NCBI GenBank assembly: GCA_006503475.1
Contig: RSEH01000403.1
Span: 1-24,569, forward strand
Direction of reading: 5' to 3'
DNA length: 24,569 nucleotides
Origin: Stentor roeselii
Lineage: Eukaryota; Ciliophora; Heterotrichea; Heterotrichida; Stentoridae
A program made the position numbers and the translations under genes. The notes below the pieces were generated by a model. That model was given only the letters and a program-made list of their open reading frames with translations. It did no database searches and was not told where the DNA came from. This document shows, one piece after another, positions 5,249 through 24,569 of the stretch. The number at the start of each line of letters is the position of its first letter. The stretch's first letter is position 1.

Positions 5249-6817
5249 CTAATAAATCAAACAAGATCCCCTACATGACTTCTGTGATTTAATCTGCGTG
5301 AGTCCACTAAAAGAAGTCCGATCATCAAACCTAACATAATGACTTGAGTCTTCACCAAAAAGCACTTCTCCCATAGCATTCTCCTGAATATTAACCTTCC
5401 AAAACAAACACCTACTCTTCACAACAACAACTCCATATTCACTATTAAAATTGATTTCACAATTACGAGTTTCAATAACTTCCAATGCATCTTCCTTCAA
5501 GTTATTCATACAACAAAGTCCACTTCTACTATTTTCAGATATTTTACAATTTTCAATTAACACCCTATTCGAGTATCCACTTATTTCAATTCCATTTCCA
5601 CCATTCAAATCAATAGAATTTGAAGAAAAAGTAAAAATTTTAGTAAAATCAGGTCCTTTTGAGCACTTTCCAGTAATAAAAACTCCTCCAAGAGAATTTC
5701 TAAAAATTTCATTCTTACTTAAAATGACTGAAGAAGAGTAAATATAAAGACCATATCCCATCAACGAGTCTGAAAAGCGATTTGAAGAAATTTCAAAATT
5801 TCCTTCATTTTCAATTCTCTGAACTTTTTGTATCCAGCAACTCGTCATCCCATTATAAGCAAAGTCGTTATTTTCACAAGTAAAAGAAAAAATTGCAAGA
5901 TGTCGAATAGAAAGTCCTTCTTTTTTATTATTCGAGATTTTATTCCTGGTGATCACGATTTTTCCTCCAAGGTGATGAAAAGTATCAGAAAATATTGAAA
6001 GACCTGCACCTTGATTATGGACGATATCGTTTTGATCTATAAGAAGGTCGTTATTTTTAAAATCTGAGAGAAATGAAATCTCAACTGCGGACTTTTTACA
6101 TTTTTCGATAAAACAAGTCGAAATCACTACAGATGAAGGGTCGACAAGGACCAAAGCACTTCCGTTACAACAGGAAAAATGACATTTACAAACAGTCACT
6201 TCACATTTAAAATGAGTTCTAATCACTTCTTCGAAACCTGTAATGTCACAAGAGTTTAAAGTCAATTTTGAATCGTTAACAACTGAAATGAATTTGCTTT
6301 GGTCGGAACCTGAAACAACACAGTCAGAAACTTCTAAAGAAATTTTTGAGTCTAATGTTATTCCAATGCCTGAGATCACGGAAATTGTTAGTTCTGAAAA
6401 AGTCACTTCGAGGTTTTCACCTGATATGGTAATTCCTTCGTTTTCCAGAAGAAGTTTTGTACCTTGAATGCCTTTCAGATGAATTGATTTTGTTATTGAT
6501 AGACTTGATAGTTTTAAGGAGTCTCCCGGAAGGGTTATTGTTGAATATGATGGAGAATCGTTGAGTTTTTGTTGTAAGGGGAAGGGGGTTGGCGTGGGTG
6601 GATTGATGAAACTGGGGAAAAATGAGGATTTTGAGATGTGGGAAATGTCTTCTTTGTATATTGTGCTGCAGTTTTGGCTTTTTCTGGAGAATAGAGAGAG
6701 ATGTGAATGGGACCTTTCCTTTGTTTGAAGGCAGTTAGAATTAGTGAATAAAGTATTCTTTATTACTTTTTTTTCAACACTTGTGAGATTCATGTCGATA
6801 CTTGGATTACTTGACAT
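5249..6817 (-). CDS. Right-handed parallel beta-helix (pectin-lyase-fold) repeat protein
   Basis: This 522-aa protein has an N-terminal Ser/Pro/Thr-rich, probably disordered region (about 1-95, including PPTPTPFP). Stacked turns of about 22-30 residues follow (about 95-490) with the PbH1 pattern: hydrophobic strand, Asn ladder, then GxGI/L. Examples are DLLIDQNDIVHNQGAGLSI, ILSKNEIFRNSLGGVFITG, IDLNGGNGIEISG and INFNSEYGVVVV. No F-box, signal peptide or membrane segment is seen, so it is probably cytosolic. Eukaryotic proteins with this fold include SHCBP1 and FBXO10/11-like factors and many ciliate proteins; catalytic residues of polysaccharide lyases are not evident. The C-terminus is Cys/Ser-rich (SCRGSCLIY). 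The stop is TAG. Its 3' end lies 7 bases from the PLAC8 gene's stop and its start is 25 bases from the divergent membrane-protein gene. Confidence 0.85.
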   Translation of the reverse strand: MSSNPSIDMNLTSVEKKVIKNTLFTNSNCLQTKERSHSHLSLFSRKSQNCSTIYKEDISHISKSSFFPSFINPPTPTPFPLQQKLNDSPSYSTITLPGDSLKLSSLSITKSIHLKGIQGTKLLLENEGITISGENLEVTFSELTISVISGIGITLDSKISLEVSDCVVSGSDQSKFISVVNDSKLTLNSCDITGFEEVIRTHFKCEVTVCKCHFSCCNGSALVLVDPSSVVISTCFIEKCKKSAVEISFLSDFKNNDLLIDQNDIVHNQGAGLSIFSDTFHHLGGKIVITRNKISNNKKEGLSIRHLAIFSFTCENNDFAYNGMTSCWIQKVQRIENEGNFEISSNRFSDSLMGYGLYIYSSSVILSKNEIFRNSLGGVFITGKCSKGPDFTKIFTFSSNSIDLNGGNGIEISGYSNRVLIENCKISENSRSGLCCMNNLKEDALEVIETRNCEINFNSEYGVVVVKSRCLFWKVNIQENAMGEVLFGEDSSHYVRFDDRTSFSGLTQIKSQKSCRGSCLIY

Positions 6818-7180: not shown

Positions 7181-8278
7181 CTACAACAAATTCAATATTA
7201 ATTTAGAAGTAACCCTCGACAACCACTTGACTTTCCAATTCCTTTCAGCAACCTGTTCTTCTTTTTTAACTTTCAAAGCAACAATCTTCAAATTCTTCAG
7301 ATTTTTGCGATGAAAAGCCTTCGAATGTCGAATCAAAGGAATAACAAGTGACCCAAACAACAAATTAGCCAAGACCTTAAAATCCGAAGATTCCTGGCAA
7401 TGAACATCAAGTACTCCCCAAGGATACTCCCTTAAAAACTTAAGTTTTTTCCCAATTTCCACGATTTTTCCAGCAGAAACAACAGCAAAAGGTGGAATCA
7501 TTCCAAGTCTAGTCGAATTTAAAAGTTTTGCAGCATCAGAAACAGCTCCAATATCAAAAAAATTAATCTCAGCATCAATACATTGACTTAAAATCATTCC
7601 TTTAACCTGAACGATTTCATTCTGAGTAAACATATCAGCTTTTGCAAGAACTGGTATAAGACTGACGACTTTTTGCAATAAAAACATCATCGACAAGTCA
7701 CTTTCCTTACATCGAGGACCTTCAATAAAGTAAAGTGCAAGATGAACCCTTTTATCCTCGAGTTGATTTTTATCGACAGTCTTTTTCAGCTGTTTATATT
7801 CAGAAGACTTGGCGAAAATGTACTCAGAAATGTAAGAAAACCACTTTTCTTTACTTGAAAAAAAGCCAAAACCTGGGGTGTCGATAAGGTTCACCCGAAG
7901 TTCAAGGTCAGAACTAGAAATCGTTCCTTTGTTACTTGTGATGCTTCTTGTCGGCTTTGAATGCACTTTTGACTTCAGGTTTATTAAATTAAAGTACTTT
8001 ATCAACAGGGACCGAATGAAACTTGTCTTCCCGATGTTGGAATCGCCTAGAACTAAGATGTTTAAAGTTAGAGGAGAAGTCAAAAGTTCAAGCTGGGCTT
8101 TTTTTATAAGCGTCAGGTCTGGGTGCTTTGAACAGGATGAGGAGTAAGGCGAACTTGATGGGGTTTCTATGTAAACGGATTTTAAAGTTGATGTGCTTGA
8201 GATTCGGTGAAGGCCGTGCATTGGCGGATCTGGAAGTGAGTTTGAGTTTAGGATTTGGAATTCGTCGGAAGATGTCAT
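7181..8278 (-). CDS. Divergent septin GTPase
   Basis: This 365-aa protein carries the septin GTP-binding core. The P-loop (G1) is GDSNIGKTS at residues 78-86, G3 is DTPGFG at 133-138 and G4 is AKAD at 212-215. Septin-specific stretches include VHLALYFIEGPR (178-189), SLIPVLAKAD, PPFAVVSAGKIVEI (262-275) and the septin-unique YPWGVLDV (285-292). Septins assemble into membrane-associated filaments that scaffold the cortex, division site or organelles. The N-terminus (1-70) is Ser-rich and probably disordered. After the core, the C-terminus lacks a long coiled coil; it is basic (RKNLKNLKIVALKVKK) and ends in an amphipathic LSRVTSKLILNLL. The residue after DTPGFG is Phe where Asp is usual. The start follows a nearly C-free 200-base flank; the stop is TAG. 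Confidence 0.88.
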   Translation of the reverse strand: MTSSDEFQILNSNSLPDPPMHGLHRISSTSTLKSVYIETPSSSPYSSSCSKHPDLTLIKKAQLELLTSPLTLNILVLGDSNIGKTSFIRSLLIKYFNLINLKSKVHSKPTRSITSNKGTISSSDLELRVNLIDTPGFGFFSSKEKWFSYISEYIFAKSSEYKQLKKTVDKNQLEDKRVHLALYFIEGPRCKESDLSMMFLLQKVVSLIPVLAKADMFTQNEIVQVKGMILSQCIDAEINFFDIGAVSDAAKLLNSTRLGMIPPFAVVSAGKIVEIGKKLKFLREYPWGVLDVHCQESSDFKVLANLLFGSLVIPLIRHSKAFHRKNLKNLKIVALKVKKEEQVAERNWKVKWLSRVTSKLILNLL

Positions 8279-8500
8279 TTTAGATTATTAGGGATTTTGA
8301 TTGGGATTAGGGTGGAGTTGATTTTTGGGTTTATTTGGAGGATTTGGAGGGTGGATGGAAGATGGAAGATGGACGGACTTTAGAGGATTGTGGGTTTTGG
8401 GATGATTGATTTTTTTTTGGGTTTTGAGATTTGGAATGGGAGATGATTTCTGTTGTTAGGATTTTTTGGGAAATTTGAGGTTTTTTAGAATTATTATTAG
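8279..8500 (-). promoter_or_regulatory. Strand-asymmetric 5' flank of the septin gene
   Basis: The + strand of this segment has about three C in more than 200 bases, so on the coding strand it is almost G-free. It contains a short direct repeat of GATGGAA units (8353-8375). This is the most extreme of several G-poor 5' flanks in the window. It is presumably the promoter/5' leader region of the septin gene; no specific sites are recognised. Confidence 0.45.
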
Positions 8501-9161: not shown

Positions 9162-12100
9162 TTATTTTTTCCTACTTTCCTTCGATAAATTCTGTTCCTT
9201 TCGACTTGCCTCCAAAGGACTTCCAACTTCAATAGCAGTTTGTCGAGATTTCAAATTAAAATTTGATTCAGTTTTAGAAAAAATCTTTTCATTGTCTTCT
9301 CCTTTCTTTTCAACCTTATCTTTCAAGTACTCAGCACTCGCTTTTTTCTCAATAATAGCAAAATTCGAAGAACCTTTCGTAGCAGGAGACTTTCGAGCGG
9401 CTCCTAAGTCAGGAACTGACTTGAAACTTTTAATGCTCGAGCTTTGGTCATCGATTTTTCCCAAATTTTTCCCTTTTTCAAGAGGTTTGGCTTGATACAT
9501 CGAATATTTTTCTTCTTTGAACTTTTTCTTAGTTATCAGTTGATGATCTTTACTTTTAGGAGGCTTTTTTGGGTCTTTTGAGGACTTCTTGTCGGTTTGG
9601 GATGAGTCTTCACCTTGCTTTCTCTGTGAGTCAGAGAGTTCTCCGTAGGGAGAACCTGGTTCAGAAAAGTTGAAAGTTTTAATGATTTTTTGCCTGTCTC
9701 CTTCAGCGATCATTTTATTTTCAACGAATTGCAAGTTCTTTTGAGTTGCAGGTCTCGAAACAAGAGGTGAACTAATCCCCATATTTTTATTCTCTTCCTC
9801 ATAAGCCATCTTCTTCCTTCCATCACTGGCAATAATATAACTCGAAACAACTTTATTCCCTTTAATTTCAAAGTTCTTACTTTCCTTCCCTACCTTATCA
9901 CCAGGAACTTTGATATTGACCGGTATTTTTTCAATTTTTTCCCTAACCTGCAGTTTTTTCCTTCCAGAATCTTCAAATTTCGAGGAACTTTTAACACTAC
10001 TCCTTCCAGACCCAGCTGAATCTTCTAATTTATCTTTCTTTTCACTTGAAAAAATCGATTTCCCGTAATTCTGTGCATTTTGCATTGATTTCCTGTAATT
10101 CACTTCAGAAGAAGGTGTAACAATAACAGGATTCGCAACTTCCGACCTTTTAAAATAAAAATTTTCAGCTGAAAGACTTTCTTTAATTCCAGATTTGACT
10201 TGATCTTTCTCATCTTTCAACATTTTTCTTGAATTTTCCAATGAAAGTTTAAATTCTGCAAGTTCTGCATCGTTAGGGTCGACTTCGATGACTTTTTCTC
10301 TTCTTGACTTGAATTTTTGCTGATTTTCAATGATTTGTGCTCTAGGAGAAGGAAGTGGTGGTTTGTTATTTTCATTGTTTCGAGAAGAAAAAGCCATTTC
10401 AGGATTTTTTGATTTATTTTCTTGGGTTTTATCTTGTATCTGATAAATTTCAGTCATTTCAGTGACCAGGACTTTTTCTCTTGATTTTCTTTTGATTGAA
10501 GGTTTTTCTTTTGATGTTAGTTCTGTTATTGATTTGAAGTAATTGCCTTGACTTTCTTCTGACTTGTAGTTAATTGAGTAGTAAGGACCTGAAGGAACAC
10601 CCTGGGCGTAGGACTCTATTGATGGAGATTCAATCACGTCGTGTAAGGCTTGTCTTGAAGACTCTCCTGATCGTGGTTGGACTTCTTCAGCTCCAAAGGT
10701 CCATCCTGTTCTTTTCACATTGTTTTGAACTTCAGACTCAAGAGTTTTCTTTGATTTTAATGAAAATTCTTCATTTTGGATTTTTGTTGTTAGGTCTCTT
10801 TTGGAGATTTCATTGTAAGTTTTTATTGAAGAGTATTGAGGACCTTTTTGTAGGTCTTTTTTAGTTTCAACTTGTTCTGAAGGATTTTCGATTTTTTGAA
10901 GGCCTTGATTTGAGAATTTTTCTTGAAAATCTTTGAATTGATTAGAATTTATTAATTTTTCTGTTGAAAAGACTTCATCGGGTTTTGTTTCATTTTTGAC
11001 TTCACGTTCTTCGCTTGTTCTTAGTTTTAAATTTGTTTGCCATTTGCCTTGAGAGTAAAAATCACTTCCTTGTAAAGGTTCTTTGTTACCTGAAACTTTA
11101 ATATTTTCTGTTTCTGATTGAAATTTAGATTCAATACCTGAAAAAAGATTTTCATTTGAAATCGCCTTTGATTCACCTGAAAACTTGTAAGAAGAAAAAG
11201 TTTCTTTGGACTTTAAAGATGCAGGGTTTGAGATTTCGATTTTTTTCTGATTTTTTTCTTGAAGAAGGTTTTGATAAGGTTCAGAAGGTGCTAAGGGCTG
11301 AATTTCATCTATTTTTAAACCTGGTTCATTATCAGTTATCTTGAATTTTCGATTGACTGAGTCGTCTTCATTAAGGTCCATTCCAAGTTTTCCTTCTGTC
11401 ATAACCTTCACTTCTTGTCCTTCTCTCCTTCCCTGAACCTGATAATATCCTTGAGAATAGTCATTTTCCCCAATTTTCTCAGTAAATTCATAACTAAATC
11501 GATACCTAGGAGACTTTTCTTCTCCTTTCACTTCATATTCACGATGTTCATAAAACCCTGGATCATGACTAGTCTCTTTCAAAATACCTTTCATCCCTTG
11601 AACCAAATACTCTGAACCTTCAGTCATCACTTTAGAACTTTCATAGTTTCCAGTTTTTATCCCTTCTGAAGTTTTTCCTATCAAGGCAATTGCAGATGTT
11701 CCAAAAACTGATCTTCTTGAATTCGGACTTGGAACTCTTGGGAAATATTCAGTTTCTCTTAAAGACTCTTGAGATCTTCTGCCAGGTGAAAACTTTGAAA
11801 CTCCTGAAGGCGATTTCAAGTCATTCATCGGTAATTCACCATCTGTTACTCTTATTGGAGAAATTCTTGAACCTTGAACTAGGACAGGTCCTTTTGTTGA
11901 AGGACTTGAATTTCTTGAAGTTTGTTCACCTGAGAGTCTTTCAGAGAAAATCTTTGAAATGGCTTTTTCTTTTAGTTCTGAATCTTTATGAGAGTCGAAG
12001 GCTTCTGGGAGTCCAGAGGTTTTTGTATATTGAGATTTTTCTTCTGGGTGTTGAGAAGAGTATTTTCCTTGAAGGTTAAATTTTCCGTATTCTGGGGATT

Positions 12101-12620
12101 CAGAGACTTCATATAAAGTTCTTTTTGAAGATTCAATTGGAATCTTGGATGTCGGGCTTGATTTTCTTGGAGAATGATGAGATGACCTTGGAAGGTTTTC
12201 GTATTTTTCCTGGAATTTTTGTTCTGGTGAATCTTTTCGGTCAGTGATAAATTTTTTGTATTCAATTCGATAAGTTTCTCTAGAATTATCATTAAAATTA
12301 CCTCTTGGTGAATACCTGAAACCTTCATCTCCTGGAGTTTTTTGAAGATTTTCATTAGTTTTTTTATCTGATTGTTCTGATCGAAGCTTCCATTCAACTA
12401 GCCTTTTATTTGCCTCTATATCATAAGTGCCTATATTAAACTCATCATTTTCGAAGACTATATCTCTTCTTTCTTGTCCAAATGTATAGGCAGGACTTCT
12501 TGGCATTGTGAGTTTTACTCCTGGTTCTTCATTGTAATCTCCAGGGCCGGGCGTTATAAATTTCTCTGGGTCTTGATATTTTCCTTGCATGGTATATTGA
12601 GGTCCTTCTGGCATTCCTTT
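9162..12620 (-). other. C-terminal, mostly non-repetitive tail of the giant protein (about 1,150 aa)
   Basis: An eighth, diverged module (KGMPEGPQYTMQGK, with PGPGDYNEE) opens the tail. After about 12250 PG cores almost vanish and the sequence becomes Lys/Ser/Glu/Gln-rich. Scattered relicts remain (for example VPSGPYYSINYK near 10560-10600 and TGWTFGAEE near 10690). A probable helical stretch, ELAEFKLSLENSRKMLKDEK, lies near 10200-10260. The end is strongly basic. No folded domain is recognised. Confidence 0.7.
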
Positions 12621-15600
12621 TAAGAGATAATAACCTGGTCCTGATGTTTCTGATGATTGACTATCTGGAAATCTTGAAGCAGTTCCGATAATTGCAGCTT
12701 TTGATGAGTATCTTGGATCTGTTGGGTCGTAATCTGAAGGAGTTGATTCAATTTTAATTTCATTTCTTTCAGATCCGAAAGTCCATCCAGAGCCTTTCTT
12801 TTTATTTTCATAATCAAGGTCGTATGTGCCTGGGGCTGGGTTTTCATTGTTCACAGTCTTTCCCCTACCATCAGAGCTGAATTTATATGAAGGGTGTCTA
12901 GGCTTTGAAGGATCATCTGAATCTTGATTGTAATATCCAGGACCTGGACTTTCATATTTTGGTGATTGTTGATGTTTACTTTGAATTGAGTAATGAGGTC
13001 CTTCTGGCATTCCTTTCAAGTCATAATAACCAGGTCCTGATGTTTCTGATGTTTTAGGAGCTGGGAATCTGGAAGCAGTTCCGATTATAGCGGCTTTTGA
13101 TGAGTATCTTGGATCTTTTGGATCGTAATCTGTAGGTGCAGGTGTTGATTCAATTTTAATTTCTTTTCTTTCCGATCCTAAAGTCCATCCAGATCCTCTC
13201 TTTTGCAAATCATAATCAAGGTCGTATGTGCCTGGGGCAGGGTTTTCATCATTCACAGTCTTTCCCCTACCATCAAAGCCAAATTTATATGAAGGGTGTC
13301 TAGGCTTTGAAGGATCATCTGAATCTTGATAGTAATATCCAGGACCTGGGCTTCCATACTTGGTATATTCCTGATGTTTACTTTGAATAGTATAATGAGG
13401 TCCATCTGGCATGTCTTTCAACTCATAAAACCCAGCTCCAGATGTTTCTGAAGTTTGAGGAGCAGGGAATCTTGAAGCAGTTCCAATAACAGCAGCTTTT
13501 GATGAATATTTCGGATCTTTTGGATCGTAATCTGAAGGTGCAGGTTTTGATTCAACTTTAACTTCTTTTCTTTCTGATCCGAAAGTCCATCCAGATCCTT
13601 TCTTTTTATCATCATAATCAAGGTCATATGTGCCTGGGCCAGGGTTTTCATTGTTCACAGTCTTTTCCCTACTATCAGAGCTGAATTTATATGAAGGATA
13701 TTTTGGCTTTGTAGGATTATCTGAATCTTGATTGTAATATGCAGGACCTGGGCTTACGAACTTGGTAGATTCTTGATGTTTACTTTGAATTGAGTAATGA
13801 GGTCCTTCTGGCATTCCTTTCAAGTCATAATAACCAGGTCCTGATGTTTCAGATGTTTGAGTAGCTGGGAATCTGGAAGTAGTTCCAATGAAAGCTCCTT
13901 TTGATGAGTATTTAGGATCTTTTGGATCATAATCTGAAGGAGTTGATTCAACTTTAACATCTTTTCTTTCTGATCCTAAAGTAAATCCAGATCCTCTCTT
14001 TTGCGATTCATAATCAACTTCATATTCACCTGGATTAGGATTATCGTTTTCAACTCCTTTGACTCTCTTTTTAACATCTGATTGATATGAAGGATGTCTG
14101 GGCTTTGTAGGGTCATCCGAATCTTGATAGTAAATTTTAGGACTGTCCTGTTTTTTAGTTTCGTGAGGTTTACTTTGAATAGTATAATAAGGTCCTTCTG
14201 GCATTCCTTTCAACTCATAAAAACCAGGTCCTGATTTTTCAGAAGTTTTAGTTTCTGGGAATCTAGAAGCAGTTCCGATAATAATTCCTTTTGATGAGTA
14301 CTTTGGATCTTTCGGATCATAATCTAAAGGCGTTGATTCAACTTTAACATTTTTCCTTTCGGATCCTAAGTTCAACCCAGATCCTCTCTTTTGTGACTCA
14401 TAATCAACTTCATTATCATCTGAACCACGCTTATCGTTTTCTCCTCGTTTATCTTTCTTTTCAACACCAACTTGATATGAAGGATTTCTGGGCTTTGTAG
14501 GATCATCTGAATCTTGATAATAAATTCCAGGACTTCCATATTTTGGTGATTCTTGATTTTTACTTTGAATTGAGTAATGAGGTCCTTCTGGCATTCCTTT
14601 CAACTCATAATAACCAGCTCCTGATGTTTCTGAAGTTTGAGGAGCAGGGAATCTTGAGGCAGTTCCAATGACTACAGCTTTTGATGAGTATTTTGGATCT
14701 TTTGGATCGTAATCTGAAGGAGTTGATTCAACTTTAACATCTTTTCTTTCTGATCCGAAGGCCCATCCAGATCCTCTCTTTTGCAAATCATGATCAACTT
14801 CATATTCACCTGAAGTAAAATCTTTTTCAACTCCTTTAACTTTCTTTTCATCACCAATTTGATATGAAGGAAGTCTTGGCTTTGAAGGATCATCTGAATC
14901 TTGATAGTAAATTTTAGGACCTCCGTATTTTGGTAATTCTTGATGTTTACTTTGAATAGAATAATGAGGTCCTTCTGGCATTCCTTTCAACTCATAAAAA
15001 CCAGGTCCTGATGTTTCAGATGTTTGAGTAACTGGGAATCTCGAAGCAGTTCCAATGAAAGCTCCTTTTGATGAGTACTTCTGATCTTTTGGATCATAAT
15101 CTGAAGGAGTTGATTCAACTTTAACATCTTTTCTTTCAGGTCCTAAAGTAAATCCAGATTCTCTCTTTTGTGACTCATAATCAACTTCATATTCACCTGG
15201 AGTAAAATCTTTTTCAACTCCTTTGGCTCTCTTTTCAACACCAGATTGATATGAAGGATGTCTGGGCTTTGAAGGATCATCTGAATATTGATAGTAAAAT
15301 CCAGGACTGTCTTGTTTTTTAGTTTCATGAGGTTTACTTTGCATTGAAAACTGAGGACCTTCAGGCATTCCCTTAATATTGTAAAAACCTACTCCTGAAG
15401 TTTCACTAGTCTTACCAATAGGAAATCTTGGAGATCCAACATTTTCAGCTTTCGATGAAAAATCAGGATTTTTTCTTGCTGAATCTAATATTCCAGGATT
15501 TTCATCTTTTTTATCTCCACCTTTTTCTTCTGAAACTTTTGATTGAAAACCTTCTCTTTTTGAATAAATTTCATAATATCCTGTTCCAGGTGATTCTCCA

Positions 15601-18600
15601 GTTTGTTGCTTTGATCTTGAATCAATTCCAAATTTATAACCCGGCGATTTTGATGAAGTTACGAAATCTTCTCTTTCTTTATCATATTCTTCAGTTTCTT
15701 GAAGATTTTCACGTTTAGGGTCATGAGCCTTTGGTTGTACTATGAACTGTCTTTTTTTACTTTCTTTGACATCATAACTTGTGACTTCTGGAGAATCTTT
15801 CTTTTCACTGTCCTTTCTTGCAGCACTACTATAAAAATTCTGTTTTAATAAATAATCTTCATTCGTGTATTCCCTTTCTAAAAGTTTTCCTTCATAAATC
15901 ACTTTTTCCCTTTTTTCTAAAGAAAATCGGCGTTCATTCCCTTGTCTCTGATTTTCAATATAGTAAAATCCTTCACCTTCCTTCTCAATAGGACCTCTTC
16001 CAGTACTTTCCTTTGAAAAAATCACTGAAGGAGCTTTTGGCCTAATAGCTTTATTTCCCTCTTCAACAGAATAATCTCCAGGGCCAGGACTATCATCTTT
16101 ATTAAAATCTCGTGGTCTTCCTTGCATAGTATAATAAATTCCTCCAGGTTTTCCTGAAACATCATAAGTTCCAACAGATGCGCCTTCTTGATTTTCAGTT
16201 AAAGGAGATCTTAAGCTTGTTCCAAAAACAACACCTTTGGTACCAGGACTTGATTCTCGCGGGGAATAATCAGCAGGTCCAGGGTGTTGATCCCTTTGAA
16301 CCCTTTCCTTTCTTTCTGGGGAAAATCTTTGTCCAGTACGTGGATTGTTCACATCATAAAAGGCAGGAGAATTATCATCTTTTAAACTTTTTCTTGTTTC
16401 TGTCCTGTATTGATAAGAAGGTGATTTTTTTCGTTTTTCGATTTCATCTGGTTCTTTCTTGTCTTCTTCTTGAAGAGTCTCAGGTTTTTCTTTTAAAGGA
16501 ATTTTTTCTCGCTTTTCTTTCAAGGTGTTATTTTTTAATAATGGATTTTCTGCAGTTTCAATTGAACCCTGTCGAAAAGCAGTGCCGAAGATAGGACCTT
16601 TGGAACTTTCTGAAATTCGAGGAGAATAATAACCAGGTCTATCTTCATTTGAATTCTTGAAGTTTTCTTTAAGGTCTTTTGAAAATCGTTTTTCTTGGAC
16701 TTGGTCTTTAAATTCAGGGTTTGACTTTGAAGAAACAAGATCATTTTTTTGAAGTTTTTCTTTTTTTTCATTGACGAATTTAGAAGAAGAAGATTTTAGA
16801 TTTTTTGGATTTTCAGATTTTTCTTTGTTGGAAATTGAAGGGTGTAGGTTTTTTAGAGATTCTGAAGGAGTTGGTTTGAAGGAGGATTGAGGCATGTTGG
16901 AAGATGGAATATTAGAGGATTTAGTTCCAGAGGTATTTTTTTCTTCTTTTAAAGGAGATTTTGAGGTAGTTTTAAAGATTTGGCCTTTTCGACTAGGACT
17001 TTGTTCTCGAGAAGAAGATTCTTCTAGTGAAAGGTTTGGATCTTTAGTTTCAATTACACGTTTCTCAGTTCCGAATTTATAACTGGGCGATTTTGGATGA
17101 GTTGCAAGGTCTCCAGTTGACGGGTAATAGTTTGAACCTGGAGTATCTTCTGAAATTTTTTGAGATGGTCTGGTTCCCATTGAGTAATGTGGTCCTTCTG
17201 GCATCCCTTTAATATTAAAGCTGCCTATTCCAGGAGGATCAGACACTTGATTTAAAGCAGGTCTTTCAGAGGCAGAAAATAGAAATTCTGTTGATTTCTG
17301 ATTTTTTTCATGAGGAGAATATTCTTCAGGTCCAGGTGAATTTTCAATCTTTTTTACAACTCGTGATTCATTCGAAACCTTCCATTGTGTTCCTTTATTT
17401 GCTTCAAAATTAATATCATAATTGGCAGAATCCAGTTTTTCATCTTTTAAAACCTTTTCTCTGGTAAACTGAGGATATTTTACTTTACTTGCCTTGTCTT
17501 CGTTTTGATTATAAGGGTCTGGACTTGATTCTGGTATTTTTTCAAGAAGCCTTTCTTGCATAGTGATTTCTTTTCCTGGTCTTTCTTTATTAAGTTGATG
17601 TGTTCCAGGACTTGGTGTATCAGGAGAAAATTTTTCAGTTGTTTTAGAAGGTTTTGGAATAACTGATGATTGACCTGGTTCTGGGGATTTTTCAGTGATT
17701 TTGACTTGTTGAGTTTCAGAGGACAATTGATGTTTGGGTACTTTTTCTTTTGTTTCGATATTATAGCCTCTTGGTGAAGGATTTTCATCTTTTATGATTT
17801 TTTCTCTTGTTTCAGTGCTTAATTTATAAGAAGGAGATTTTTGCTTTGATAACAAGTCACCAGAATCTTTATCATAAGTTCCTGGACTTGACTCTCTTAC
17901 TTTTTCAACTGGTCTTCCAGCCATTGTAAATCCAGTTCCTTGATTCTTATCCTTTACTTCATTTACTCCAGGACTATCTTGTTCTTTTCTTAAGGTTTGT
18001 CGTTCAGAAGTCCCGAATACAAATCCCTTTGTATTACTTTCCCTCTTATAATATTCTCCAGGTATTTTTCCTTCCTTTTCATCATTTCTCTTCTCAGTTC
18101 CAGATTTCCAAGTCCCTTTATCTTTCAAATCTCTTTCATAAGAACCTGGTACTTGACTATCTTTCTGCAAAACTGAAGATCTTTTTTCATTTCCAAATTT
18201 ATCCAATTCTGAAATTGTTTTTGTTATAAATTCATCTTTTTCTTTATAAATTTTTTTGCCAGGACTTGATTCTCTAACTTTTTCAGAAGTTTTTCCAGAG
18301 ATAGTATAATGAGGTCCTGAAGGGATTTCTTTCGGGTTAGAAGACCTGACGTCAGGTTTTTCTGGAGATTTATTGAAAGTTGGTTGATCTGATGTTGTGA
18401 ATTTTAAAACAGGTGATCGAGGAGTGTTTTCTTGAGGAGAAGACTGATCAGGTTCTGGATTTTTTTCGATTTTAGAAGGATTTTTTTGTTTTGATTCGAA
18501 GGGTAGTTGAGAAGATTTATCTTTGATGTTGACTTGATATGATCCTGGGGAAGGGTTTGTTTCTTTTGTAGGTTTCTCTTGGTTTTCACTGATGAATTTG

Positions 18601-21600
18601 GAACTTGGTGATTTAGGAACTGTGGTAAGGCCGTGGGGAGTGTATTCTGTTGGAGCTGGAGTAATTTCAGTTGTTTTTTCAAGAGATTTTCCTGTTTGGG
18701 AATAGGAAGGTCCTGAAGGCATTCCTTTAAACTCGTAAGAAACAACTCCAGGGGTCTCAGGTGCTTGACTTAAAGCAGGTCTTTCAGAATGAGAAAATTT
18801 GAACCCTGCTTGTTTCAAGTCTTTATCACGTGAAGAGTATTCTCCAGGTGTTTGTTCAAACTTATCTTTCGTTCTTTTATCTATTCCAAACTGCCATTCA
18901 ATCCCTCTTTCTTTAAAGTTTATATCATAAGTTCCTGGTGCTGGATTTTCATTTCTTTCTTCAGTTTCTCTTTTTTGTTTCGCGAAGGTGTAGGCCGGAG
19001 ATTTCGGCCTTGTAGCAGTTTCTCCAGCTTCTTTGTCATAAGAACTTGGGCCTGGTGTTATTTCAATAGCTTTTTCAGGAAGTCTTCCTCTCAAACTGAA
19101 TTCAGGTCCTTGAGAAGTCTCTTTGATGTCATACGTTCCAACTCCAGGAGTTTCTGATTCTTTGGGTGCAGGTCTTTCAGAAGTACCAAAAGTTGGGCCA
19201 GTTTTTGAATCTTTTTCACGTGGAGAATAATCACCGGGTCCTGGGGTTTGTTCGATTTTTGTATGGTCTCTTGGTTCTGAAGAAAATTTCCATTGTGGAG
19301 ATTGCTGTTTGTTTTCGATTGTGTATGTTCCTGGGGCTGGATTTGAATCTTTGATTTGTTGATTTCGATGTTCAGTTCCAAATTTGTAACTTGGAGACTT
19401 TGGACGAGTGGCTTGATCTCCTGAAGAAGGATTGTAAGTATTTGGAGCTGGGGTAGATTCTTGGATTTTTTCGGAAGGTCTTCCGTGAAAAGTGTAGTGT
19501 GGACCCTCAGGCATTCCTTTGATGTCATAACTTCCGACTCCTGGACTTACTGGTGCTTCATGTAAAGTTGGTCTCTCACTACTTGAAAACACAAATCCAC
19601 TTGTTTTTGGGTTATTATCTTCTGGATTGTATTCTCCAGGTCCAGGAAAGTTATCAACTTTAGTTCTTAACCGTTGTTCAGTTGAGAATTTCCATTCCGG
19701 TCCTTTTTTTAAGTCAAAATTAGTCTCATAACTTCCAGGCGCCGGGTTTTCATCTTTAATCACTTTTTCACGAGTTTCTTTGCTAAAGGTATATTGAGGA
19801 GACTTTGGTTTTGTAGCAGTTTCTTCAGTTGGACTGTATGAACCTGGTCCTGGACTTGATTCTCGAATTTTTTCAACTGGTCTTCCTTGCATAGTAAAGC
19901 CTTCTGGTCTTTCTTTTGTGATTTCATATGTTCCTGGTCCTGGAACATCAGATGGCGAATTAAAGTCAGTTTTTGAAGTTTTCGAAAAAACTGGTGCTAA
20001 TGAATGGGGCTGAGTTTCTTGAGGAGAATACTGACCTGGTCCAGGTGCTCTTTCAGTTATTTTGACTTGTCGAGTTTCAGATCCGAATTGCCATTTCGGC
20101 CCTTTTTCTTTTGGTTCGATATTATAGGCTGTTGGAGAAGGATTTTCATCTTTTATGGTTTTTTCTCTTGTTTCAGTACTAAACTTATAAGAAGGAGATT
20201 TCGGTCTTGTTGCAAGATCGCCAGAATCTTTATCATAAGTTCCTGGGCCTGGAATTAATTCTCTAACTTTTTCAAGAGGTCTTCCAGTCATCGTTAAACC
20301 AGTTCCTTGATTGTGTTCTCTTATTTCATATGTACCAGCTCCAGGAGTATCTTGTTCTTTGCTAAAAATTTGTCGTTCAGAAGTTCCAAAAGTAAATCCA
20401 GTTGGCTTTGGTTTAGTATCAAGAGGAGAATAATCAGCAGGACCTGGCTTTTCTTCTATTTTTAGGTGGGATCTTGACTCTGAGCCGAATTTCCATTCTA
20501 ATCCTTTGTCTTTAATAGTTAAATCATAATCTCCAGGAGCAGGAGTAGTTTCTTTTACTTGGTCTTCACGTCTTTGACTGCTGAACTTGTAACTAGGTGA
20601 CTTCGGACGAGTTACCACATCCCCAGTCTCAGGATAATAACTCGCAGGCGAAACATTCGATTCTTTAATTTTTTCCACAGGTCTTCCAGCCAAACTATAA
20701 TAAGGTCCTTCAGGCTTTGCTCTAACTTCATAACTCCCGACTCCAGGAGTATCAATAAAATTACCAATACCAGGTCTCTCAGAACTACCAAATCCAAAAC
20801 CCTGTGATTTTTCCTTTAAATTCCCAGGAGAGTACTCTCCAGGTCCAGGTGTAATTTCAACTTTTTCCTTATTTTTATTCTCAGTTCCGAACCTAATTTC
20901 AATTCCTTTATCTTTAAAATTTATTTCATAATCACCAGGTGCAGGATTTTCATTTCTTTCAACAGTCAATCTTTTTTCAGTTCCAAATCGATGCGAGGGT
21001 GACTTTGGCTTTATTAACTGATCAGAAGTTTCTTTATTATAAGTCGTAGGTCCTGGACTTGATTCTTTTAATTTCTCATTTTGTCTTCCTTGCATTGAAA
21101 ACATTGGACCTTCTGGCATTCCTTTCACTTCATAAGTTCCAACCCCTGGAGTTTCATTTTCTTTAAAAGTAGGTCTTTCTGCAGTACTTATATAAAAACC
21201 AGTTGATTTGATAATATTTTCTTGATAATATTCTCCAGGTCCTGGTGAACTTTCAATTTTATCTTTCAAGCGAGTTTCATTTGAGAACTTCCAAGAAGGT
21301 CCTTTATTTGCATCGTAATTTACATCATAAGTTCCAGGAGCAGGGTAATGATCTTTGATGTCTTTATTAAGAGACTCTTTTGGAAACTGGTATTGAGGAG
21401 ATTTAGGTCTTGTGATGAAGTCTTTATTATGATCATATTCACCTGGTCCAGGACTTGATTCTCGATTTTTTTCAAGTTGTTTAACACCCATCGTAAACTG
21501 AGGACCTTCAGTTTTTTCAGTCCTTATTTCATATGTTCCAACACCTGGAGTTTCTGATGGTGCATCGAAAAGAGTTCTTTTAGATGACCCGAAGACAGGT

Positions 21601-24569
21601 GCTGATGAATGAGGATTTATTTCTTTTGGAGAATATTCTCCTGGGCCTGGGACTTTTTCTAGTTTTTTTATATTTCTTTCTGCTGTTGAAAATACCCAAG
21701 TTGGTCCTTTTTCTTTTGGTTCTATGTTGTAGGTATTTGGAGAAGGGTTTTCATTTTTTATTATCTGTTCTCTTGATTCCGTGCCAAAACGGTAAGAAGG
21801 AGATTTTGGTCTTGTTGCTAAATCTCCTGCTTCTTTTGAATAAGCTCCTGGGCCTGGACTTGATTCTCTTATTTTTTCAACTGGTCTTCCAGTAATCGAA
21901 TACCCAACACCTTGATTTATTTCTTTTACTTCATAAGTTCCTACTCCAGGAGTATCTAAAGCTTTACTCAAAGCAGGTCTTTCTGAAGTTGTATAAGCGA
22001 AACCTGGTTTATTACTTTCACGAGGAGAATAAAATCCAGGGCCTGGTGTTTGTTCAAATTGAAGATGATCTCTTGGTTCTGAAGAAAATTTCCATTGATA
22101 TCCTTTATCTTTTATCTGAACATCGTAATCTCCAGGAGCTGGAAAAGTTTCTTTTAAAAGATTTTCACGTTTTTCAGTACCGAATTTATATTCAGGGGAT
22201 TTTGGCCTTGTTGCCTTATCTCCAGTTTCCGGATGATAAAAATTTGGAGCAGGAGTTGATTCTTGAATTTTTTCAAGAGGCTTTACACCCATGGTGAATT
22301 GGGGACCTTCAGGCTTTTCGGATCTTATTTCGTATGTGCCTACACCAGGGGATTCGTTTGGTTTGGTTATAGATGTTCTGGAAGATGTTGGGAAAATTGG
22401 AGCTGTTGAGTGGAATTGAGTTTCTTGAGGGGTGTATTGACCTGGACCTGGGGCTTTTTCTATTGTTTTGGTTTCTCTTTTTTCAGTTCCAAAGGACCAG
22501 AGTGGACCTTTTTCTTTAGTATCGATGTTATATGAAGTTGGTGATGGGTTATCATCTTTAATGATTTTTTCTCTTGTTTCTGAATTGAACTTATAGGAAG
22601 GAGATTTAGGCCTTGTAGGTAAGTCATTAGGATTATACATTGCAGGGCCTGGACTTGACTCTATGATTTTTTCAAGTGGTCTGCTTTTCATTGTAAATTG
22701 AGGACCTTGGACAGTTTCTTTCAATTCATATGTGCCGACTCCGGGAGTTTCTGGAGCCTTACTCAAAGCAGGACGTTCTGATTTTCCAAATAAAACTTCA
22801 GGAGACTTAGGCCTTGTAGGTAAATCATCAGGATTATAATTCGCAGGCCCTGGACTTGACTCTGTCACCTTTTCAAGAGGTCTGCTTCTCATTGTATATT
22901 GAGGACCTTGAACAGTTTCTTTAACTTCATATGTACCGACTCCAGGAGTTTCAGGTGCTTTACTTAATTCAGGACGTTCTGATTTTCCAAACAAAACTCC
23001 AGGAGACTTAGGCCTGGTTGGTAAGTCATCAGGATTATAATTTGCAGGACCAGGATTTGATTCTTTGATTTTTTCAAGTGGTCTGCTTACCATAGTAAAC
23101 TGAGGACCTTGAAGAGTTTCTTTCAATTCATACGTTCCTACTCCAGGAGTGTCAGGTGCTTTACTCAACTCAGGACGTTCTGATTTATCGAATACAAATC
23201 CAGAAAACTTGGGCCTTGTTGGTAAATCATCAGGATTGTAATTACCAGGACCCGGACTTGACTCTCTCACCTTTTCAAGTGGTCTATTTCCCATGGTATA
23301 TTGAGGACCTTGAAGAGTTTCTTTCAATTCATATGTTCCGACTCCAGGAGTATCAGGTGCTTTACTTAAAGCAGGTCGCTCTGATTTTCCAAACAAAACT
23401 CCAGGAGATTTCGGCCTAGTAGGTAAATCATCAGGATTATAATTTGCAGGACCAGGATTTGATTCTCTGATTTTTTCAAGAGGTCTGCTTCCCATGGTAA
23501 ACTGAGGACCTTGAATAGTTTCTTTCAATTCATATGTTCCGACTCCGGGAGTTTCAGGTGCTTTACTTAAAGCAGGACGTTCTGATTTTCCAAACAAAAC
23601 TCCAGGAGATTTTGGCTTGGTCGGCGAATCATTAGGATTATAATTTGCAGGGCCTGGACTTGATTCTCTGACCTTTTCAAGTGGTCTGCTTCCCATAGTA
23701 AATTGAGGACCTTGAAGAGTTTCTTTCAATTCATACGTACCAACTCCAGGAGTTTCAGGTGCTTTACTTAGTTCAGGGCGTTCTGATTTTCCAAACAAAA
23801 CTCCAGGAGATTTCGGCCTGGTAGGTAAATCATCAGGATTATAATTTGCAGGGCCTGGACTTGACTCTCTGACCTTCTCAAGTGGTCTGCCTCTCATTGT
23901 ATATTGAGGACCTTGAACAGTTTCTTTGATTTCATAAGTACCGGCTCCAGGAGTCTCAGGTGCTTTACTCAATTCAGGACGTTCTGACTTTCCAAATAAA
24001 ACTCCAGGAGATTTCGGCCTAGTAGGTAAATCATCAGGATTATAATTTCCAGGACCAGGATTTGATTCTCTTATTTTTTCAAGTGGCCTACTTCCCATGG
24101 TATATTGAGGACCTTGAAGAGTTTCTTTAACTTCATATGTACCGACTCCAGGAGTATCTGGAGCCTTGCTCAAAGCAGGCCTCTCTGATTTTCCAAACAA
24201 AACTCCAGGAGATTTCGGCCTAGTAGGTAAGTCATCAGGATTATAATTTGCAGGGCCTGGACTTGAATCTCTGACTGTTTCAATTGGTCTGCTTCTCATT
24301 GTATATTGAGGACCTTGAAGTGTTTCTTTATGTTCATATGTACCAACTCCAGGAGTATCTGGAGCTTTACTCAAAGCAGGTCGTTCTGATTTTCCAAACA
24401 AAACTCCAGGGGATTTCGGCCTGGTTGGTAAATCATCAGGATTATAATTGGCAGGACCAGGATTCGATTCTCTGATTTTTTCAGCAGGTCTGCTTCCCAT
24501 AGTAAACTGAGGACCTTGAATAGTTTCTTTCAATTCATATGTTCCGACTCCGGGAGTTTCAGGTGCTTT
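9162..24569 (-). CDS. Giant SHIPPO/STPG (sperm-tail PG-rich) repeat protein, partial, N-terminus off the right edge
   Basis: The frame is open from the right edge (KAPETPGVGTYE) to TAA at 9164-9162: 5,135 codons visible, no stop and no need for an intron. The initiator ATG lies outside the window. The protein consists mainly of about 33-aa SHIPPO/STPG repeats whose signature is (S/T)PGPGxY, often followed by a charged linker and an aromatic-containing (K/R)F(G/S)xExR motif. From the N-side there are nine 67-aa double repeats, fourteen 131-aa quadruple repeats (decaying toward the C-side), a degenerate zone, seven homogenised 129-134-aa modules, and a K/S/E-rich tail ending in KESRKK. Known STPG proteins (ODF3/CIMAP, STPG1/2) associate with ciliary and sperm-tail microtubules and are a few hundred residues long. 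By analogy this one may bind axonemal or cortical microtubules. It is predicted to be mostly disordered, with no membrane segment or enzyme domain visible. Confidence 0.92.
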   Translation of the reverse strand, partial: KAPETPGVGTYELKETIQGPQFTMGSRPAEKIRESNPGPANYNPDDLPTRPKSPGVLFGKSERPALSKAPDTPGVGTYEHKETLQGPQYTMRSRPIETVRDSSPGPANYNPDDLPTRPKSPGVLFGKSERPALSKAPDTPGVGTYEVKETLQGPQYTMGSRPLEKIRESNPGPGNYNPDDLPTRPKSPGVLFGKSERPELSKAPETPGAGTYEIKETVQGPQYTMRGRPLEKVRESSPGPANYNPDDLPTRPKSPGVLFGKSERPELSKAPETPGVGTYELKETLQGPQFTMGSRPLEKVRESSPGPANYNPNDSPTKPKSPGVLFGKSERPALSKAPETPGVGTYELKETIQGPQFTMGSRPLEKIRESNPGPANYNPDDLPTRPKSPGVLFGKSERPALSKAPDTPGVGTYELKETLQGPQYTMGNRPLEKVRESSPGPGNYNPDDLPTRPKFSGFVFDKSERPELSKAPDTPGVGTYELKETLQGPQFTMVSRPLEKIKESNPGPANYNPDDLPTRPKSPGVLFGKSERPELSKAPETPGVGTYEVKETVQGPQYTMRSRPLEKVTESSPGPANYNPDDLPTRPKSPEVLFGKSERPALSKAPETPGVGTYELKETVQGPQFTMKSRPLEKIIESSPGPAMYNPNDLPTRPKSPSYKFNSETREKIIKDDNPSPTSYNIDTKEKGPLWSFGTEKRETKTIEKAPGPGQYTPQETQFHSTAPIFPTSSRTSITKPNESPGVGTYEIRSEKPEGPQFTMGVKPLEKIQESTPAPNFYHPETGDKATRPKSPEYKFGTEKRENLLKETFPAPGDYDVQIKDKGYQWKFSSEPRDHLQFEQTPGPGFYSPRESNKPGFAYTTSERPALSKALDTPGVGTYEVKEINQGVGYSITGRPVEKIRESSPGPGAYSKEAGDLATRPKSPSYRFGTESREQIIKNENPSPNTYNIEPKEKGPTWVFSTAERNIKKLEKVPGPGEYSPKEINPHSSAPVFGSSKRTLFDAPSETPGVGTYEIRTEKTEGPQFTMGVKQLEKNRESSPGPGEYDHNKDFITRPKSPQYQFPKESLNKDIKDHYPAPGTYDVNYDANKGPSWKFSNETRLKDKIESSPGPGEYYQENIIKSTGFYISTAERPTFKENETPGVGTYEVKGMPEGPMFSMQGRQNEKLKESSPGPTTYNKETSDQLIKPKSPSHRFGTEKRLTVERNENPAPGDYEINFKDKGIEIRFGTENKNKEKVEITPGPGEYSPGNLKEKSQGFGFGSSERPGIGNFIDTPGVGSYEVRAKPEGPYYSLAGRPVEKIKESNVSPASYYPETGDVVTRPKSPSYKFSSQRREDQVKETTPAPGDYDLTIKDKGLEWKFGSESRSHLKIEEKPGPADYSPLDTKPKPTGFTFGTSERQIFSKEQDTPGAGTYEIREHNQGTGLTMTGRPLEKVRELIPGPGTYDKDSGDLATRPKSPSYKFSTETREKTIKDENPSPTAYNIEPKEKGPKWQFGSETRQVKITERAPGPGQYSPQETQPHSLAPVFSKTSKTDFNSPSDVPGPGTYEITKERPEGFTMQGRPVEKIRESSPGPGSYSPTEETATKPKSPQYTFSKETREKVIKDENPAPGSYETNFDLKKGPEWKFSTEQRLRTKVDNFPGPGEYNPEDNNPKTSGFVFSSSERPTLHEAPVSPGVGSYDIKGMPEGPHYTFHGRPSEKIQESTPAPNTYNPSSGDQATRPKSPSYKFGTEHRNQQIKDSNPAPGTYTIENKQQSPQWKFSSEPRDHTKIEQTPGPGDYSPREKDSKTGPTFGTSERPAPKESETPGVGTYDIKETSQGPEFSLRGRLPEKAIEITPGPSSYDKEAGETATRPKSPAYTFAKQKRETEERNENPAPGTYDINFKERGIEWQFGIDKRTKDKFEQTPGEYSSRDKDLKQAGFKFSHSERPALSQAPETPGVVSYEFKGMPSGPSYSQTGKSLEKTTEITPAPTEYTPHGLTTVPKSPSSKFISENQEKPTKETNPSPGSYQVNIKDKSSQLPFESKQKNPSKIEKNPEPDQSSPQENTPRSPVLKFTTSDQPTFNKSPEKPDVRSSNPKEIPSGPHYTISGKTSEKVRESSPGKKIYKEKDEFITKTISELDKFGNEKRSSVLQKDSQVPGSYERDLKDKGTWKSGTEKRNDEKEGKIPGEYYKRESNTKGFVFGTSERQTLRKEQDSPGVNEVKDKNQGTGFTMAGRPVEKVRESSPGTYDKDSGDLLSKQKSPSYKLSTETREKIIKDENPSPRGYNIETKEKVPKHQLSSETQQVKITEKSPEPGQSSVIPKPSKTTEKFSPDTPSPGTHQLNKERPGKEITMQERLLEKIPESSPDPYNQNEDKASKVKYPQFTREKVLKDEKLDSANYDINFEANKGTQWKVSNESRVVKKIENSPGPEEYSPHEKNQKSTEFLFSASERPALNQVSDPPGIGSFNIKGMPEGPHYSMGTRPSQKISEDTPGSNYYPSTGDLATHPKSPSYKFGTEKRVIETKDPNLSLEESSSREQSPSRKGQIFKTTSKSPLKEEKNTSGTKSSNIPSSNMPQSSFKPTPSESLKNLHPSISNKEKSENPKNLKSSSSKFVNEKKEKLQKNDLVSSKSNPEFKDQVQEKRFSKDLKENFKNSNEDRPGYYSPRISESSKGPIFGTAFRQGSIETAENPLLKNNTLKEKREKIPLKEKPETLQEEDKKEPDEIEKRKKSPSYQYRTETRKSLKDDNSPAFYDVNNPRTGQRFSPERKERVQRDQHPGPADYSPRESSPGTKGVVFGTSLRSPLTENQEGASVGTYDVSGKPGGIYYTMQGRPRDFNKDDSPGPGDYSVEEGNKAIRPKAPSVIFSKESTGRGPIEKEGEGFYYIENQRQGNERRFSLEKREKVIYEGKLLEREYTNEDYLLKQNFYSSAARKDSEKKDSPEVTSYDVKESKKRQFIVQPKAHDPKRENLQETEEYDKEREDFVTSSKSPGYKFGIDSRSKQQTGESPGTGYYEIYSKREGFQSKVSEEKGGDKKDENPGILDSARKNPDFSSKAENVGSPRFPIGKTSETSGVGFYNIKGMPEGPQFSMQSKPHETKKQDSPGFYYQYSDDPSKPRHPSYQSGVEKRAKGVEKDFTPGEYEVDYESQKRESGFTLGPERKDVKVESTPSDYDPKDQKYSSKGAFIGTASRFPVTQTSETSGPGFYELKGMPEGPHYSIQSKHQELPKYGGPKIYYQDSDDPSKPRLPSYQIGDEKKVKGVEKDFTSGEYEVDHDLQKRGSGWAFGSERKDVKVESTPSDYDPKDPKYSSKAVVIGTASRFPAPQTSETSGAGYYELKGMPEGPHYSIQSKNQESPKYGSPGIYYQDSDDPTKPRNPSYQVGVEKKDKRGENDKRGSDDNEVDYESQKRGSGLNLGSERKNVKVESTPLDYDPKDPKYSSKGIIIGTASRFPETKTSEKSGPGFYELKGMPEGPYYTIQSKPHETKKQDSPKIYYQDSDDPTKPRHPSYQSDVKKRVKGVENDNPNPGEYEVDYESQKRGSGFTLGSERKDVKVESTPSDYDPKDPKYSSKGAFIGTTSRFPATQTSETSGPGYYDLKGMPEGPHYSIQSKHQESTKFVSPGPAYYNQDSDNPTKPKYPSYKFSSDSREKTVNNENPGPGTYDLDYDDKKKGSGWTFGSERKEVKVESKPAPSDYDPKDPKYSSKAAVIGTASRFPAPQTSETSGAGFYELKDMPDGPHYTIQSKHQEYTKYGSPGPGYYYQDSDDPSKPRHPSYKFGFDGRGKTVNDENPAPGTYDLDYDLQKRGSGWTLGSERKEIKIESTPAPTDYDPKDPRYSSKAAIIGTASRFPAPKTSETSGPGYYDLKGMPEGPHYSIQSKHQQSPKYESPGPGYYNQDSDDPSKPRHPSYKFSSDGRGKTVNNENPAPGTYDLDYENKKKGSGWTFGSERNEIKIESTPSDYDPTDPRYSSKAAIIGTASRFPDSQSSETSGPGYYLLKGMPEGPQYTMQGKYQDPEKFITPGPGDYNEEPGVKLTMPRSPAYTFGQERRDIVFENDEFNIGTYDIEANKRLVEWKLRSEQSDKKTNENLQKTPGDEGFRYSPRGNFNDNSRETYRIEYKKFITDRKDSPEQKFQEKYENLPRSSHHSPRKSSPTSKIPIESSKRTLYEVSESPEYGKFNLQGKYSSQHPEEKSQYTKTSGLPEAFDSHKDSELKEKAISKIFSERLSGEQTSRNSSPSTKGPVLVQGSRISPIRVTDGELPMNDLKSPSGVSKFSPGRRSQESLRETEYFPRVPSPNSRRSVFGTSAIALIGKTSEGIKTGNYESSKVMTEGSEYLVQGMKGILKETSHDPGFYEHREYEVKGEEKSPRYRFSYEFTEKIGENDYSQGYYQVQGRREGQEVKVMTEGKLGMDLNEDDSVNRKFKITDNEPGLKIDEIQPLAPSEPYQNLLQEKNQKKIEISNPASLKSKETFSSYKFSGESKAISNENLFSGIESKFQSETENIKVSGNKEPLQGSDFYSQGKWQTNLKLRTSEEREVKNETKPDEVFSTEKLINSNQFKDFQEKFSNQGLQKIENPSEQVETKKDLQKGPQYSSIKTYNEISKRDLTTKIQNEEFSLKSKKTLESEVQNNVKRTGWTFGAEEVQPRSGESSRQALHDVIESPSIESYAQGVPSGPYYSINYKSEESQGNYFKSITELTSKEKPSIKRKSREKVLVTEMTEIYQIQDKTQENKSKNPEMAFSSRNNENNKPPLPSPRAQIIENQQKFKSRREKVIEVDPNDAELAEFKLSLENSRKMLKDEKDQVKSGIKESLSAENFYFKRSEVANPVIVTPSSEVNYRKSMQNAQNYGKSIFSSEKKDKLEDSAGSGRSSVKSSSKFEDSGRKKLQVREKIEKIPVNIKVPGDKVGKESKNFEIKGNKVVSSYIIASDGRKKMAYEEENKNMGISSPLVSRPATQKNLQFVENKMIAEGDRQKIIKTFNFSEPGSPYGELSDSQRKQGEDSSQTDKKSSKDPKKPPKSKDHQLITKKKFKEEKYSMYQAKPLEKGKNLGKIDDQSSSIKSFKSVPDLGAARKSPATKGSSNFAIIEKKASAEYLKDKVEKKGEDNEKIFSKTESNFNLKSRQTAIEVGSPLEASRKEQNLSKESRKK
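12621..15374 (-). repeat. Second homogenised array: seven modules of 387-402 bp
   Basis: Modules begin at K-G-M-P-E-G-P; their P/G codons lie near 15355, 14968, 14581, 14191, 13801, 13399 and 12997, and an eighth, diverged one near 12601. The steps are 387, 387, 390, 390, 402, 402 and 396 bp. Each carries KGMPEGPHYSIQSK, YYxQDSDDPSKPRHPSYK, GTYDLDY/GEYEVDY, ERKDVKVESTPSDYDPKDPKYSSK and IGTASRFP...SETSGPGYYEL. The four on the N-side have lost part of the PG core of the first two sub-repeats (387-390 bp); the three on the C-side keep PGPGYY and APGTYD (396-402 bp). Confidence 0.93.
15375..17210 (-). repeat. Degenerate SHIPPO zone
   Basis: It starts as a fifteenth module (KGMPEGPHYSMGTRPSQK, from 17210) but quickly becomes a Ser/Lys-rich segment with few PG cores (about 16550-17000). 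Isolated good repeats then reappear: DRPGYYSPR, QHPGPADYSPRE, EGASVGTYDV and DSPGPGDYS. It separates the two more regular arrays and looks like old repeats that escaped homogenisation. Confidence 0.75.
17211..22721 (-). repeat. Fourteen SHIPPO modules of about 131 aa (about 394 bp)
   Basis: Each module has four sub-repeats in order: (a) xEGPxFTMxGRPxEKxxESSPGPxxY; (b) ATRPKSPSYKFGTExR...NPxPxxY; (c) KEKGPxWxFxxExR...PGPGxYSPxE; (d) FxxSERPxxxxxxETPGVGTYEI. The first begins at 22721 and the fourteenth ends before 17210. Modules on the N-side keep all four PG cores. From about 18750 leftward many cores are lost or altered (for example PEPDQ, PGKKIY, PDPY), so the modules are diverging. Recognisable module types recur in the same order (see findings). 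Confidence 0.88.
22722..24569 (-). repeat. Array of 201-bp (67-aa) tandem units, about 9.2 copies
   Basis: Unit starts (KET[I/L/V]QGPQ[F/Y]TM) fall exactly every 201 bp from 24530. Each unit carries two PG cores: ES(S/N)PGPANYNPDD and ETPGVGTYE, joined by LPTRPKSPGVLFGKSERP. Units differ at a handful of sites with no length variation. Residue patterns (I/L/L/V/L at the fourth position, IN/VS/IN/VS/VS in the ES(N/S) motif) recur every five units, revealing a 1,005-bp higher-order period: 24481-24569 matches 23476-23564 with only 3 mismatches in 89 bases. The array continues beyond the right edge. Confidence 0.93.

Follow-up and report, generated by a model that had tools for sequence, protein, structure and literature searches.

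The window analysed here, 24,569 nucleotides that make up all of contig C351 (1–24569) in an assembly of 44.4 Mb and 522 contigs, contains a giant gene whose product is, as judged by its sequence, a genuine and outsized member of the SHIPPO repeat family, distinguished by its size, by a super-order of its repeats and by its tail. On balance, this product is probably a microtubule-associated protein of the ODF3L/STPG type and would form an extended lattice staple, in which about 100 units run over about 0.8 μm; this reading draws on the repeats themselves and on analogy with solved PG-rich proteins. The gene and its parts are arranged as follows:

9162..24569, reverse strand: giant SHIPPO/PG-rich repeat gene, with 5,135 codons visible and then TAA; the 5′ part is absent (contig end)
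22569..24569, reverse strand: two-unit array, residues 1–667; ten 67-residue periods, unit spacing 31/36, DNA period of 201 bp
18480..22568, reverse strand: first four-unit (A-B-C-D) super-repeat, residues 668–2030; period of about 134 residues
15420..18479, reverse strand: degenerate, motif-poor stretch, residues 2031–3050 (1,020 residues); 14 units at iE<0.01
12450..15419, reverse strand: second four-unit block with its own consensus, residues 3051–4040; DNA period of 402 bp, 26 units at iE<0.01
9162..12449, reverse strand: Lys/Ser/Glu-rich basic tail, residues 4041–5135 (1,095 residues); pI 9.2

The frame of the giant gene runs for 15.4 kb without a stop, and the longest competing stop-to-stop frame that overlaps it has 154 residues. 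It is left open at its 5′ side because the contig ends inside the 201-bp tandem array (22599–24569). A preliminary description of this DNA had read a single open frame of more than 5,135 residues leaving the window, in agreement with the 5,135 codons and TAA cut by the contig end. It had also pointed to neighbouring sequence as the place of the 5′ end, and there the search came back empty: the terminal 402 bases of the window match genome DNA in 10 places, all on C351, and no continuation was found on 18 other contigs with SHIPPO matches. On 17 of these 18, as read from the match coordinates, the match stops at least 3.5 kb before the relevant contig end; on C58, where the match lies near the contig start, a 390-residue frame is judged too short to reach that end. 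The visible part of the protein has a predicted mass of 574 kDa and a pI of 8.7, with no Cys and 18 Trp in 5,135 residues, and its gene has no TGA codon. Within the frame, 35 strings of the form GT-N11-AG occur, one of which resembles the introns of this genome in having at least 10 A/T and ending in YAG (the 15-nt introns of this genome have 10–12 A/T; 16-nt strings were scanned at 12 A/T or more). By eye, this single candidate aligns with ordinary repeat sequence of another unit and was rejected, so that the gene is intronless, as described before, as far as 15-nt introns are concerned.

The remainder of the window is occupied by smaller features. A frame of the septin GTPase family (7181–8284, reverse strand; PF00735, E 1.8e-49) adjoins the giant gene, and a right-handed β-helix protein (5249–6817, reverse strand; PF13229, E 3.2e-26), a PLAC8-family frame (4921–5241, forward strand) and an Auto_anti-p27 frame (PF06677; 2457–2855, reverse strand) lie farther away from it. 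About two copies of a tandem repeat of 60–62 bp are found in the intergenic stretch 3992–4107. A 15-nt GT..AG string (GTGATCTTTACTTAG) is located at 4312–4326 on the forward strand, and its removal opens a 127-residue frame from 4189, in which no Pfam family scores over the cut-off.

The SHIPPO/STPG family assignment of the preliminary description is confirmed by the profile search that it had proposed: against a curated Pfam cut-off of 20 bits, PF07004 scores 296 bits (E 8.5e-92) with the N-terminal half of the protein and 34.4 bits (E 3.6e-8) with the C-terminal half. A profile trained on the giant itself detects 101 units at iE<0.01, or 96 with an extra length filter, and one for which solely paralog units located on other contigs were used detects 84 at the same threshold; the latter finds no unit in any of five shuffles and none in the reversed giant sequence. 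There are 20 exact PGPG.Y motifs and 80 matches to a relaxed form, the latter being sparse in the second four-unit block (9 per 990 residues), and Val replaces the second Pro of the motif in 27% of the units of the first arm. An earlier estimate of about 100 repeats consequently stands for units (84–101 at iE<0.01) and fails for exact PGPGxY motifs. Pro-4 and Tyr-9 are present in 100% of the detected units that cover those columns, a figure that is partly built in, since the seed units were chosen for P and Y.

The units are evenly spaced. Among 100 unit intervals, 88 measure 29–37 residues (mean 33.1, sd 2.2), and the remaining 12 range from 57 to 166 residues—ten of them close to a multiple of 33, the exceptions being 57 and 152. 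A mean deviation from multiples of 33 this small arises in 3 of 100,000 uniform draws; as the units descend from duplications, the register indicates few insertions and deletions and is not proof of constraint. The two-unit array and the first four-unit block together hold 61 units at iE<0.01. The tail (residues 4041–5135) is free of units at iE<0.01 and of Pfam matches, and its segment 9162–11861, searched against the genome, retrieves itself plus one other stretch of the giant, with no match outside the gene.

Above the single unit, a super-order is apparent. Two-unit order prevails in the first 667 residues. In the two four-unit blocks, units four apart are alike (p 0.001) and units three apart are not (p 0.94–0.98), with the motif columns omitted from the comparison. 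With profiles of the unit types, for which eight cassettes were used, the chain begins with eight A-D pairs and continues with two A-B pairs, the first of which resembles the A-D pairs by eye; from there to about residue 4040 it consists of A-B-C-D cassettes, each about 134 residues long, with gaps in the middle. At iE<0.1 this reading comprises 119 rows, five of which overlap a better row and leave 114, some of them weak and three lying in the tail.

Selection was gauged from the repeats themselves. The ten 67-residue copies give a median dN/dS of 0.15 over 45 pairs. Adjacent 201-bp copies share 75–89% of their DNA sequence, at a synonymous divergence of 0.3–0.7 and with little amino-acid change, and are therefore old and constrained copies, not one read copied. 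Constraint is weaker in the longer blocks outside the N-terminal array, where four in-register comparisons give a dN/dS of about 0.4–0.65; two further comparisons (starts 3284 and 3416) of the six made were out of register and left unused, and in the comparison of 267-residue blocks synonymous change is near saturation.

The giant has many smaller relatives in the same genome. PF07004 matches over the cut-off were counted by hand on at least 55 contigs including C351, with 150 of 296 candidates scored; many of these are single weak units, and they are matches, not proven genes. Units were counted in ten paralogs, which have 9–21 each, with 11–13 in seven of the ten, on open frames of 326–688 residues. 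Among the SHIPPO frames listed, the next largest after the giant are 944 residues on C77 and 688 residues, without a stop, on C24; the former crosses one TAG, which lies inside a 15-nt intron, and a 734-residue frame on C92 likewise crosses one TAG. All seven in-frame stops inspected in paralogs (C320, C505, C92, C77 and C148) lie within 15-nt GT..AG strings and represent six distinct introns, one being seen twice (L003/L033). TAA and TAG serve as stops in these paralogs, compatible with the standard code. Tiny 15-nt introns and standard-like stops are traits of heterotrichs such as Stentor, and the introns of the paralogs suggest a heterotrich-like ciliate as the source; the ciliate origin proposed in the preliminary description is in line with these introns and with the stops. 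Four of the six distinct introns, on four contigs (L026, L003/L033, L005 and L032), interrupt the PG motif at the same codon junction (P^GPG).

The relation between giant and paralogs bears on how the former arose. The four-unit cassette of the giant scores best when placed from unit 3–5 in 9 of 11 paralogs, the exceptions being L025 (unit 2) and L031 (unit 8); for L028 and L034 other placements score nearly as well, and in L003, an exon fragment, the units are not numbered from the protein start. That the giant arose when the central part of an ODF3L-like ancestor was amplified is a fair inference, short of proof. Pooled, the 11 paralogs follow a three-unit order at p 0.001—the least possible value with 1,000 permutations, with motif columns omitted and with the pooled sequences being related and thus not independent. 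Taken singly, four of the 11 (L002, L024, L028 and L030) show this order at p<0.02 and seven lie above that value; L025 and L034 tend non-significantly toward a four-unit order (p 0.07 and 0.29).

Among proteins of known structure, the relatives of these repeats are microtubule-binding PG proteins. A segment of the four-unit block of the giant, searched alone against PDB sequences, finds ODF3/CIMAP1A of sperm doublets at E 2.1e-7; with residues 1–668 as query, no chain reaches E≤1. A profile that combines one segment of the giant with seven paralogs finds the "Sperm-tail PG-rich repeat" chains 9y6s/9e5c at 1.5e-21 and Tetrahymena STPG1A (8g2z) at E 4.6e-7. Four lectin chains from the search with the giant segment and a tau chain from that with the mixed profile, at E 0.1–0.54, were taken as chance. 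AlphaFold2, run on an alignment of only eight sequences, yielded no usable fold (mean pLDDT 47, pTM 0.11); this low confidence would fit, as weak evidence, a chain that becomes ordered only when bound.

An extended chain reaches about 0.34 nm per residue, that is, 9.9 nm for 29 residues and 12.6 nm for 37, so that the regular intervals could each bridge one step of 8 nm and not two. In Tetrahymena cryo-EM, PGPGxY was described as a microtubule-binding motif sitting on consecutive tubulins, about 40 residues serve as 8-nm spacers between PG motifs, and the 12 motifs of ODF3L suggest a length of 96 nm (PMC10105768). The microtubule association that had previously been assigned from family knowledge is thereby carried further, by analogy, to a placement of the motif on the lattice. 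It is from the even units of the giant together with this motif on successive tubulins at 8 nm (PMC10105768) that a lattice staple of about 0.8 μm is proposed. The Pro/Gly-rich chain would lie extended along the groove between protofilaments, with a PG motif gripping each tubulin dimer and about 33 residues of spacer bridging the 8 nm to the next, and about 100 units would thus staple about 0.8 μm along a single microtubule. Slack, or an anchor to another structure, might be provided by the basic tail and the motif-poor middle. Lattice binding, an extended conformation, the length of the bound chain and a role as stabilizer are predictions for this protein, whereas its frame, its units with their even spacing and super-order, and its kinship with solved microtubule-binding PG proteins are read from the sequence.

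Several points weigh against such a staple. The spacing is 33 residues here versus "about 40" in Tetrahymena (PMC10105768), the exact motif occurs just 20 times, and the second block is poor even in the relaxed one. Tandem duplication alone would also yield even spacing, the longer blocks are under weaker selection, and the first 668 residues by themselves match no solved chain at E≤1. With about 1,000 motif-poor residues in its middle, the chain may be attached over only part of its length.

The staple may sit either on cortical ribbons or in axonemes. An axonemal ruler, which would run along ciliary doublets over at least eight 96-nm repeats, is a sub-case that overlaps the staple and appears doubtful. 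The recognized relatives among solved chains are proteins of doublet microtubules, and three four-unit cassettes make 12 units, which at 8 nm each come to 96 nm. Doublet periods are multiples of 24 nm on the outside, where ODF3L is placed, and multiples of 16 nm on the inside (PMC10105768). An order of two and four units, corresponding to 16 and 32 nm, would thus fit the inside period and keep the lumen compatible, whereas it speaks against the outer axonemal wedge. The pooled paralogs follow three units, equal to 24 nm, and the blocks of the giant four, without a three-unit signal. The super-order may, however, only record which block was duplicated. Also against an axonemal ruler, shippo-rpt genes of Stentor fall into late regeneration clusters within gene sets whose expression, according to the authors, is not cilia-specific (PMC9371601); this mildly favors a non-ciliary role for some SHIPPO members and says nothing on the giant itself. 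Instead of following one track, the chain might be a bivalent cross-linker, with its arms of 61 and 26 units on two microtubules or grooves and the 1,000 motif-poor residues as a flexible hinge for the bundling of ribbons. The unit consensus of the two arms is indeed distinct, and over the 1,020 residues that separate them just 14 units are detected; yet 10 of the 12 long intervals, several of them in this middle stretch, hold the 33-residue register, which would fit one continuous track. A cross-linker is judged unlikely.

Two further explanations dispense with the microtubule lattice or with the protein altogether. Giant Sfi1-like scaffolds with hundreds of centrin/spasmin sites occur in protist myonemes (PMC12661445), but that the present protein is such a scaffold for calcium-binding proteins of a contractile myoneme is scarcely credible: residues 1–2030 contain 13% Pro and 9% Gly, a composition that speaks against a long helix as in these scaffolds, the Sfi1 motif, written as a regular expression, matches nowhere in the giant, and the units are SHIPPO by Pfam, with no Sfi1 among the Pfam matches of both halves or the tail. 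A search of the genome for the Sfi1 family gave no match, without a positive control, and hence says nothing on absence. An assembly artefact or a decaying locus, in which arrays were mis-joined and the protein does not exist, would account for a contig that ends within a tandem array and for the motif-poor middle. Against this, and rendering it very improbable, stand the age and constraint of the adjacent 201-bp copies, evident from their identity and synonymous divergence, and the length of the frame without a stop.

For the lattice staple, a more specific version is put forward as a tentative possibility: a sub-micrometre, single-chain ruler outside the 24/96-nm register of the outer axoneme. 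Amplification of the four-unit cassette of an ODF3L-like ancestor would have turned a 96-nm doublet protein into one of about 0.8–1 μm with a 16/32-nm order, which might staple or cross-link non-axonemal (cortical) microtubules. If the 8-nm rule of Tetrahymena holds, one polypeptide could keep register over about 100 successive tubulin dimers—a scale reminiscent of titin. The four-unit order of the giant versus the three-unit order of the pooled paralogs offers an entry, at the level of sequence, to the question of whether the period of a decorated microtubule is encoded in its PG proteins.

In titles and abstract openings of the open-licence literature, no giant SHIPPO/PG-rich member was found. 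The Sfi1-type and spasmin-binding giants of myonemes resemble the present protein in being giant, repetitive and part of a protist cytoskeleton and differ in the chemistry of their repeats; GSBPs are the spasmin-binding giant proteins of myonemes. The paralogs of the same genome share the 33-residue unit with the giant, but have 9–21 units and a pooled three-unit order in place of its four-unit order. ODF3/CIMAP1A and 1B of sperm doublets (8otz, 8iyj and 8snb) have SHIPPO-type repeats in common with it by sequence and differ in being chains of 251–303 residues from animal sperm. STPG1A (8g2z) shares the PGPGxY motif, which in its case sits on consecutive tubulins, and matches by profile; unlike the giant, it is described with five motifs in 364 residues, and it extends over the 48-nm repeat and threads its way into the lumen. 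The closest parallel is Tetrahymena ODF3L, which likewise combines PG motifs with a fixed spacer and is inferred to lie on the outer microtubule wedge at 8 nm per motif (PMC10105768). It has 12 motifs (96 nm) versus about 100 in the giant and spacers of about 40 versus 33 residues, and the long unit-free tail of the giant has no counterpart mentioned for ODF3L in the portion of PMC10105768 available. The earlier statement that known proteins of this family have a handful of repeats needs amending, given these 12 motifs and the counts in the ten paralogs, the usual 11–13 units of which resemble those of Tetrahymena ODF3L (PMC10105768).
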